Source of the DNA: an uncultured Eubacteriales bacterium
Lineage (GTDB): Bacteria; Bacillota; Clostridia; Lachnospirales; Bianqueaceae
Reading direction: 5' to 3'
Assembly (NCBI GenBank): GCA_900316145.1
Contig: ONBQ01000142.1
Coordinates: 1-64,000, forward strand
DNA length: 64,000 bases
Part shown: piece by piece, positions 24,151-44,714 of the stretch
Numbering within the stretch: the stretch's first letter is position 1
Layout: every line of letters starts with the position of its first letter
Program-made: the position numbers and the translations under genes
The notes under the pieces: model-generated
Told to the model about the DNA's origin: nothing
Databases searched by the model: none
What the model saw: the letters and a program-made list of their open reading frames with translations, nothing else

Positions 24151-24179
24151 TTGTCTATTTGTAGTTTCTGTGGTATTAT
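24151..24179 (+). promoter_or_regulatory. Promoter in front of inverted-repeat array A
   Basis: TTGTCT (24151-24156), 17 bases, TATTAT (24174-24179) with extended TGG. The array starts 22 bases past the -10 box, so it lies in the 5' leader of the nuclease-like gene. Confidence 0.7.
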
Positions 24180-24201
24180 TAAATATCTTCTTGTTCTCTG
24201 G

Positions 24202-24561
24202 ACACTTGCTGCGGTTAAAATTTTCTTCTTCAGCAAGTGTTTTTCATTCATCACACTTGCTGGTCTGTTGCTTTGTTTCTCTCAGGCAGTGTTTTTCTTA
24301 ACACCCACTGTCTGGTCAATAAGTTTTTTCTGTCAGGCAGTGTCAATTTTTCTTTTTTTCTACAAAACCACAGCTTTTTAGACGCCTGTCTTCTTGGAGA
24401 GCTCGCTCCTTAAACAAATCACACTGTCTCTGGATACTATTTATTTTCCCAGCAAGTGCCCCTCTTCAAAAACACTTGCTGCTAAAACAAATGATCTTCG
24501 CAGGCAGTGCGCATCTTGTCAGACACTATCTGAGAAACAGAAATCAATCATCAGCAAGTAT
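24202..24561 (+). repeat. Array A: twelve alternating inverted 10-mers, 51-52 bp period
   Basis: The gene-free 506-base gap 24071-24577 is filled by short motifs that alternate strictly in orientation. Forward copies (ACACTTGCTG or CCACTGTCTG type) start at 24202, 24253, 24305, 24421, 24472 and 24523; reverse copies (CAGCAAGTGT or CAGGCAGTGT type) start at 24231, 24283, 24334, 24450, 24501 and 24552. Forward-to-reverse spacing is 29-30 and reverse-to-forward 22, except one 87-base step in the middle. The bases between motifs are not conserved. Two sub-motifs (GCAAG and GGCAG/GACAG) occur. Each neighbour pair could form a hairpin with a loop of 19-20 or 12 bases. Confidence 0.9.
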
Positions 24562-24577
24562 TCAGAAAGGAGTTTTC

Positions 24578-25390
24578 ATGCCGGGTTTCTACTTACCGAT
24601 CGAACATCAGCTATCCATCCTCGAATCTCTCCGCAAAAAGGCTGAAGCCTCGCTTTCCAAACGGCCACCCGGGCATCTTACCATCCAAAAGAGCGGTCAC
24701 ACGTATCAATATCTGTATCGTCCCACGCAGAATACCCGCAGGCAGTATGTTCGCAAAAGCAATATGCCCTTCGTTCGTGATCTTGCTCAAAAAGAATATG
24801 AAGAAGCCTTTCTGCGTGAGGCGGCAAAGGAAAGAGCGCGGCTCTTAAAGGCGCAGAGCAAAAGTCACGCCTGCAGCGCATCCTTCATGTATCACGCTTT
24901 GGCCGCTCCTTACGAAAAGCTTTCCTCGGAGCGCAAGTCTCTTATCACACCCTATGTTCTGCCGGATGACGAATATATTCAAGCCTTTCTAAACACGCCC
25001 TATGAGCACAAGGGATTTGATAAGGATTTTCCGGTCATCGAGACGGAAAACGGCGAGCGGGTGCGTTCCAAAAGCGAGAAGATCATCGCAGACAAGCTGA
25101 AAGCGCTGGGCATCCCCTATCTTTATGAATACCCTCTCAAGCTAAGCAGGCTTGGCTGGGTGCATCCGGATTTCACCATGCTGGATATCAGAGAACGTAT
25201 CCTGGTGATCCTGGAGCATTTTGGCAAGATGCTGGATCCGGATTATGTATCTTGGAATATGCGGAAGATGGAGAACTATATCGAGGATGGGTATATACCC
25301 GGCGACACCTTGCTATCTACCTTCGAGGGCGGTCCTCATGTGCTAGGCGTATCATGTCTGGACAAGCAGCTCAAAGAGCGGTTCTTTTGA
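24578..25390 (+). CDS. Probable PD-(D/E)XK nuclease-like protein
   Basis: A 270-residue soluble protein whose ATG follows AGAAAGGAG. The N-terminal half (about 1-130) is basic and helical (ESLRKKAEASLSKRPPG, then an E/K/R-rich stretch). The C-terminal half has ENGERVRSKSEKIIADKL (Glu167), then VHPDFTMLD (Asp198) and ILEHFGK (Glu213), in the order of a restriction-endonuclease-like core. The exact ExK lysine is not clear, so activity is uncertain. It follows the inverted-repeat array and overlaps the coaBC end by 20 bases on the other strand. Confidence 0.6.
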   Translation: MPGFYLPIEHQLSILESLRKKAEASLSKRPPGHLTIQKSGHTYQYLYRPTQNTRRQYVRKSNMPFVRDLAQKEYEEAFLREAAKERARLLKAQSKSHACSASFMYHALAAPYEKLSSERKSLITPYVLPDDEYIQAFLNTPYEHKGFDKDFPVIETENGERVRSKSEKIIADKLKALGIPYLYEYPLKLSRLGWVHPDFTMLDIRERILVILEHFGKMLDPDYVSWNMRKMENYIEDGYIPGDTLLSTFEGGPHVLGVSCLDKQLKERFF

Positions 25391-44281: not shown

Positions 44282-44520
44282 TGCTCCTACGTTTTCTCAT
44301 TTCTTGCTGAAAATGTAGGAGTTTTCCTACTATTCCGCCGTTTCTTCTTTATAGTAGGAAAAAGAGATGTCCATTTTCCTACTTTCACATTTTGATTTCG
44401 GAGAATGTAGGTTTTTCTTATCCTTTTTCCTACATTCTCTTTCCTGATTTATGATCCGGTAGGAAAATAACACTTCCATTTTCCTGCTAAAACCCAGCAT
44501 CTTCACTGTATGTAGGAATC
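44282..44520 (+). repeat. Array C: ten alternating inverted 10-mers, 51-54 bp period
   Basis: Forward copies (TTTTCCTACT type) start at 44282, 44322, 44374, 44425 and 44479; reverse copies (AGTAGGAAAA type) at 44314, 44353, 44406, 44458 and 44511. Orientation alternates without exception. Forward-to-reverse spacing is 31-33; reverse-to-forward is 19-21, except the first, which is 8. Good arms include TTTTCCTACTAT/ATAGTAGGAAAA and GAGAATGTAGG/CCTACATTCTC, so alternative hairpins compete. It lies between the promoter and a 54-residue ORF. Confidence 0.9.
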
Positions 44521-44549: not shown

Positions 44550-44714
44550 ATGCATCCCTATTTTCTTTCTCTGACCTTCCGCAATAACAAGACCGCTGTT
44601 GCTCTGATCCATATGCCGAAAAACGCGGACCTGTACTTTGCAAACTGTGTTTATGAAGGCAATGAAGTCGACTTCGACAACCAGGCCGGAAACAAGATCC
44701 TGGATGAGTATTAA
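44550..44714 (+). CDS. Small hypothetical protein, 54 residues, behind array C
   Basis: ATG at 44550 to TAA at 44712-44714 encodes 54 residues beginning MHPYFLSLTFRNNKTAVALI and ending NKILDEY. CAGAAAGGAGT lies just before the ATG and closely resembles the site in front of the array A gene (CAGAAAGGAGT there too). The protein is acidic at its C-terminus and has no membrane segment. I know no family. Position after a promoter and array suggests it is expressed. Confidence 0.6.
   Translation: MHPYFLSLTFRNNKTAVALIHMPKNADLYFANCVYEGNEVDFDNQAGNKILDEY

Follow-up and report, generated by a model that had tools for sequence, protein, structure and literature searches.

Alternating, helically phased sites before a putative PD-(D/E)XK nuclease gene: a probable set of double-stranded DNA sites with dispersed relatives

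The leader of a nuclease-like gene in an uncultured Eubacteriales bacterium contains twelve short sites in strictly alternating orientation (array A). These sites probably constitute a cis-acting double-stranded DNA element to which, most likely, the product of the downstream gene binds; that product would be a nuclease paired with dispersed repeats of its own. The array is located in the window, a stretch of 64,000 nucleotides (positions 1 to 64,000 of contig ONBQ01000142.1, assembly GCA_900316145.1), whose features are collected in Table 1. The sites are 9-10-mers situated within 24202-24561 with a period of 51-52 bp. Their consensus is CACT-NN-CTG, with TG, GC, GT or AT in the middle, and sites 7, 11 and 12 are imperfect copies. 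The second block of six sites ends a little upstream of the ribosome-binding site.

Table 1. Features of the window discussed in the text (positions are those of the whole stretch).
Feature	Positions	Strand	Description
Candidate promoter	24151..24179	+	TTGTCT-17-TATTAT; upstream of array A; weak
Array A, first block	24202..24343		six alternating sites: 24202+, 24231-, 24253+, 24283-, 24305+, 24334-
Array A, central gap	24344..24420		start-to-start distance of sites 6 and 7: 87 bp
Array A, second block	24421..24561		six alternating sites: 24421+, 24450-, 24472+, 24501-, 24523+, 24552-
Nuclease-like gene	24578..25390	+	270-aa protein MPGFYLPIEHQ...; confident predicted structure
N-terminal half	24578..25027	+	residues 1-150; helix, beta-hairpin, long helix; variable
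C-terminal PD-(D/E)XK-like domain	25034..25327	+	residues 153-250; profile match, Foldseek, invariant residues
Array B	44284..44518		ten alternating TTCCTACATT-type sites; pairs 27-29 apart, inter-pair distances mostly 23-25
ORF behind array B	44550..44714	+	54 aa; starts MHPYFLSL; resembles family members in the first residues only

A preliminary description of the window, made from the letters alone, had reported twelve motif copies that alternate without exception, at spacings of 29, 22, 30, 22, 29, 87, 29, 22, 29, 22 and 29; both the copies and every one of these distances were recovered. It had also raised the question whether such order might arise when the leader is shuffled. With a chain detection based on 9-base words, at most two mismatches and strict alternation, 11 sites of array A were chained, whereas no chain in 1000 dinucleotide shuffles of this leader was longer than 8. 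The first six-site block, which excludes the gap, was equalled by none of 1000 shuffles (best 5). The "good promoter" that the preliminary description placed before the array fared less well, as the promoter-like match agrees at 9 of 12 positions and a single such match was found where 1.1 would be expected by chance.

Comparison with the leader of the ortholog in a sister species (L013) revealed which parts of the array are maintained. The distances of the sites from the start codon equal those of array A within about 2 bp and the central gap has the identical length, while spacer identity reaches only 48% and the orthologous protein is 60% identical to that of the window. All twelve sites are in register between the two leaders, with CAC kept in 33 of 36 positions. 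At 11 of the 12 gene-linked sites the two species differ in motif position 4, with T in one and A in the other, and arrays situated away from the gene (solo arrays) follow this change, being of the CACT type in the window genome (G000) and of the CACA type in G009. In one solo array (L199), the central gap is likewise kept within a base or two. These observations substantiate the earlier statements that the bases between the sites are not conserved and that motif, orientation and spacing are under selection. A chance origin or ordinary tandem duplication of functionless sequence could draw on the tandem-copied units present inside some arrays (L029, G265 and one array with two identical spacers). 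It is nevertheless of negligible probability, as no shuffle matched array A, motif, orientation and spacing stay the same where spacers diverge, and reversed-pattern controls in the genomes concerned returned zero for both the AAGCAGAA and the CACT searches.

The preliminary description had left two readings side by side, an RNA in which hairpins compete and a DNA stretch that offers numerous sites to a protein, which might be the product of the gene itself. The periods of 39 arrays cluster at 51-54, 61-64 and 73-75 bp. In a Rayleigh test over these arrays, R was 0.84 at 10.5-10.7 bp with a phase near 0 (p ~1e-12, an optimistic value because not all 39 arrays are independent), and none of 5000 uniform simulations exceeded 0.55. 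Deviating bases were matched in neighbouring partner sites in 8.6% and 5.2% of cases, compared with 6.2% in non-neighbouring sites. Compensatory changes between paired sites are thus not evident, and the flanks are not more complementary either. Periods at multiples of the helical turn together with this lack of compensatory changes indicate that the sites are phased on double-stranded DNA and most probably do not form RNA hairpins.

It is therefore very improbable that the leader acts as RNA through competing hairpins, such as those of an attenuator or of an antitoxin in the style of type III systems. The leader of array A does fold better than its shuffles (z -5.66), as inverted repeats generally would, and a candidate promoter is present upstream. 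However, the good fold is best regarded as a by-product, because partner sites do not compensate each other and the periods obey the 10.5-bp DNA helix. Arrays are also found downstream of genes, between convergent genes and standing alone, and a search of Rfam gave no match above the gathering score. The second of the two earlier readings is hence favoured, with the sites being the probable binding places of a protein. The view of the array as an element of the leader was too narrow, since the motif forms arrays elsewhere and the gene has hundreds of relatives, many of which carry arrays of other motifs.

The gene behind array A lies between neighbours that are GH42-like (divergent) and coaBC-like as named from their sequences. 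No model in Pfam or NCBIfam matches its protein and no relative was found by sequence in the PDB, where a family profile gave two weak matches only. The last ~100 residues match the C-terminus of PADLOC PDC-S68 (E 4e-20), a match common to all 73 family members analyzed. The AlphaFold model is confident (pLDDT 94), and Foldseek aligned its C-terminal part, and that part only, with the PD-(D/E)XK nucleases Bax1, DrdV and R2 endonuclease, though weakly (best E 7e-3). Invariant or nearly so in the 73 members are R163-S-K-S-E167, D198, E213-H214 and G216. The acidic residues of a PD-(D/E)XK site (E167, D198 and E213) are thus invariant; a lysine two residues after E213 is absent, and H214 stands next to it. 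By this PD-(D/E)XK-like C-terminus the protein is a putative nuclease, which agrees with the earlier label of a nuclease-like gene. The N-terminal half, for which the model is confident yet finds no confident fold match in the PDB, is the candidate DNA reader.

At least 583 relatives were identified in a scan of public genomes. Among the 80 matches listed, most belong to rumen and gut Lachnospiraceae, others to Treponema, Fibrobacter, Saccharofermentans and further groups. One to eight copies each are present in 18 of 19 genomes of the window's taxonomic family, and a class-wide sample gave a match in 44 of 291 genomes, some of them partial. No Pfam or NCBIfam family is common to all 73 members, and Y1 transposases are absent among the matches listed for them. 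An origin as a phage or plasmid gene was considered and discarded, as there were one distant phage record, two partial plasmid matches and eight weak viral contigs.

Many relatives of the gene are likewise accompanied by alternating arrays, whose motifs differ from that of array A and from each other: AAGCAGAA (31/21), TTCACCAA (29/25), TACCAGTG (28/34), TTTAGCCT (30/44) and others. These gene-linked arrays comprise 6-22 sites and are located upstream of the gene, where they often occupy the stretch preceding the ribosome-binding site, or, less often, downstream. A strict alternating-chain detector was applied to the 74 named loci for which 500 bp or more of upstream sequence were available; it found chains of at least five sites in 31 regions and of at least six in 20, with a maximum of 16; the remaining 43 regions stayed below five sites. 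None of 592 shuffled controls exceeded four sites. Four loci have 8-10 sites within the 600 bp that follow the gene, and a second nuclease gene is absent from these stretches. A fifth locus (L061) exhibits a 22-site array further downstream. The leader of another (L030, G009 C196) has TTACCTGA as outer and AATACTGT as inner sites and seemingly mixes two motifs in one array. As to the question, also raised earlier, whether relatives keep the gene in the absence of alternating repeats, the answer is mixed: some copies do lack an adjacent array, but arrays may also sit elsewhere in the genome. One such copy is found in the window genome (L011, G000 C74:757-1551), where promoter-like sequence directly precedes the start codon.

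Pattern searches and sampled stretches were used to survey genomes for arrays. In all six genomes searched for the motif of their gene, this motif was also found to form arrays away from it, and most of the genomes tested have solo arrays at only 1-6 places. Among 19 genomes, AAGCAGAA pairs at a distance of 31 bp are confined to G006 and G008, both of which carry the cognate gene, with 6 and 3 places away from it in these two genomes; one match in G005 has another spacing. In G006, AAGCAGAA arrays of up to 12 sites occupy several places apart from the gene, mostly between convergent genes. An array-like match in the same genome (GAAGACTC, C4:63798-64125) lies in low-complexity coding sequence and is a false positive of the detector. 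Solo arrays are also present in the genome of L132 and in Butyrivibrio hungatei DSM 14810, a cultured strain whose TTTAGCCT motif forms one gene-linked and two solo arrays. The window genome contains a six-site solo array at C134, and at C134:6649-6685 its first pair is part of a longer stem of 14 bp with six T behind it, which could also serve the preceding gene as an intrinsic terminator. The interpretation of the solo arrays as a promoter regulon was set aside, as they are not located in divergent promoter regions, with the exception of one doubtful case in G265.

A second array within the window itself (array B) has a motif unrelated to that of array A and no nuclease gene behind it. The short ORF that follows is likely, judging by its first residues, to be a remnant of a family gene. 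The TTCCTACATT motif also forms a five-site array at G000 C61, behind a GAPDH-like gene.

Evidence for multiplication of the arrays varies between genomes. The single-contig genome G265 has 17 arrays with five motifs in 400 kb. Several of them are 70-90% alike between loci, which indicates that they were copied from one locus to another, and the copies of one motif occur at many places, mostly in tandem intergenic regions. Recent copying is not clear in G006 because the spacers differ between loci, and in the majority of the tested genomes solo arrays show no clear spacer similarity to gene-linked ones. Where spacers are unlike, copying is old or never happened.

A possible dependence of an array on its gene can be followed at one place in related genomes, between the genes for proteins that begin with MIDRLTSFDSC and MxNIFDYL. 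Here, G009, in which the nuclease-like gene is intact, has twelve sites with a gap of ~87 bp. Only two sites each are present at the same place in G010, where the gene is a pseudogene, and in G011, where an ortholog was not found. The pairs retained in G010 and in G011 are counterparts of different pairs in G009, which points to a long ancestral array that shrank independently in both genomes. Such a collapse together with gene loss was observed at this locus alone; at a different solo pair, G009 with its intact gene and G010 with its pseudogene have two sites alike.

Motif and protein appear to change together. Motif similarity showed a partial correlation of 0.16 with N-terminal identity when C-terminal identity was held constant (2 of 1000 permutations as high), compared with 0.045 for C-terminal identity when the N-terminal half was held constant (177 of 1000 permutations as high). 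The link with the N-terminus is small in size, and the permutations ignore shared ancestry among arrays that are partly non-independent. As far as these sequence comparisons go, motif similarity tracks the variable N-terminal half of the protein.

Based on these observations, a model can be outlined for the probable role of array A. Each inverted pair would be bound by the protein, probably as a dimer, and the bound protein would build a regular nucleoprotein on one face along the array. In the leader of its own gene, such binding would repress the synthesis of the protein. Elsewhere, by analogy with the action of RAYT on REP/BIME, the nuclease may act on the arrays, which would account for their upkeep and probable multiplication. 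In a broader and tentative form of this proposal, PD-(D/E)XK nucleases would recognise an 8-bp motif through their fast-evolving N-terminal half and would build, keep and copy phased alternating arrays of this motif around the chromosome, with several orthogonal pairs of protein and motif in one genome.

Two other explanations also place a protein on the sites. In the first, the arrays are operators that serve the host: a domesticated DNA-binding nuclease would regulate itself and act at solo arrays as a roadblock, insulator or chromosome organiser, with no self-serving spread. The frequent position of gene-linked arrays before the ribosome-binding site, the location of several solo arrays between convergent genes and the vertical inheritance of solo arrays at an identical place in sister species would fit this explanation. 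It is nonetheless unlikely, given that arrays are sometimes located downstream of the gene, that the same-motif arrays of G265 are mutual copies at many places, mostly in tandem intergenic regions, and that a pure regulator would not need the active-site residues that are invariant in 73 members. In the second, the arrays act as a DNA sponge or antitoxin that holds the nuclease harmless, so that a cell keeping the gene must keep the arrays. Collapse of the array at the locus where sister species have a lost gene or a pseudogene speaks for such an arrangement, as does the position of arrays on either side of the gene. On the other hand, gene copies with no adjacent array exist (G000 C74) and it would be unusual for a nuclease to be restrained by the site that it recognises, which makes the sponge quite improbable. 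The preferred reading remains that of phased double-stranded DNA sites for a nuclease to which these dispersed repeats belong.

If this reading is correct, the arrays and their genes would represent a second, independently built bacterial pairing of an enzyme with dispersed repeats. The gene family comprises hundreds of members, is common in rumen and gut Clostridia and has no name in curated databases. It would offer many natural pairs of a protein and an 8-bp site for studying the two-sided evolution of DNA specificity, and the alternating geometry in whole turns would suit the study of protein-DNA assemblies. The preliminary description knew of no described element of this kind, and likewise no account of alternating arrays with a nuclease gene was found in open-access papers, an earlier report elsewhere being possible.

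Among known systems, REP/BIME-RAYT is the nearest parallel in behaviour, while its enzyme and repeats are unrelated. Both cases feature dispersed extragenic repeats that alternate and are regularly spaced, a cognate enzyme gene that adjoins some of the repeats, a motif that goes with the enzyme and repeats that are species-specific. However, the enzyme described here is PD-(D/E)XK-like by its fold matches and not a Y1/HUH transposase (no Pfam match for the protein behind array A and no Y1 transposase among the matches listed for the 73 members). Its repeat unit is a non-palindromic site of 8-10 bp and not a palindrome of 20-40 bp as in REP, and the spacing is locked to the DNA helix. REPs show compensatory changes, indicating selection for complementary mutations, and exist in 37-427 copies (PMC2817692), whereas the arrays described here lack such changes and number few to tens. 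The differences in enzyme class, repeat structure and complementary mutations lead to the conclusion that the system is not a member of REP/BIME-RAYT. The PD-(D/E)XK nuclease and its phased arrays perhaps form a repeat-and-enzyme class of their own, unrelated to REP/RAYT.

The C-terminal domain resembles the candidate defence proteins PDC-S68 and HEAT_CxxC_PDDEXK of PADLOC. Those of the PDC-S68 type are ~1200 aa long and only profile positions ~1084-1233 are matched, by the last ~100 residues; the N-terminal half and the arrays lie outside both models. Short repeats preceding a nuclease gene are also known from type III toxin-antitoxin systems, in which toxI repeats precede toxN. There, the repeats are direct RNA repeats and the toxin has a different fold, while the repeats described here alternate and, on indirect evidence from phasing and compensation, probably act as DNA. 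Finally, several sites in a gene's own leader recall the operator arrays of autorepressors, from which the present arrays are set apart by up to 22 sites, by their occurrence at distant or downstream positions and by the conserved nuclease-like domain of the protein.
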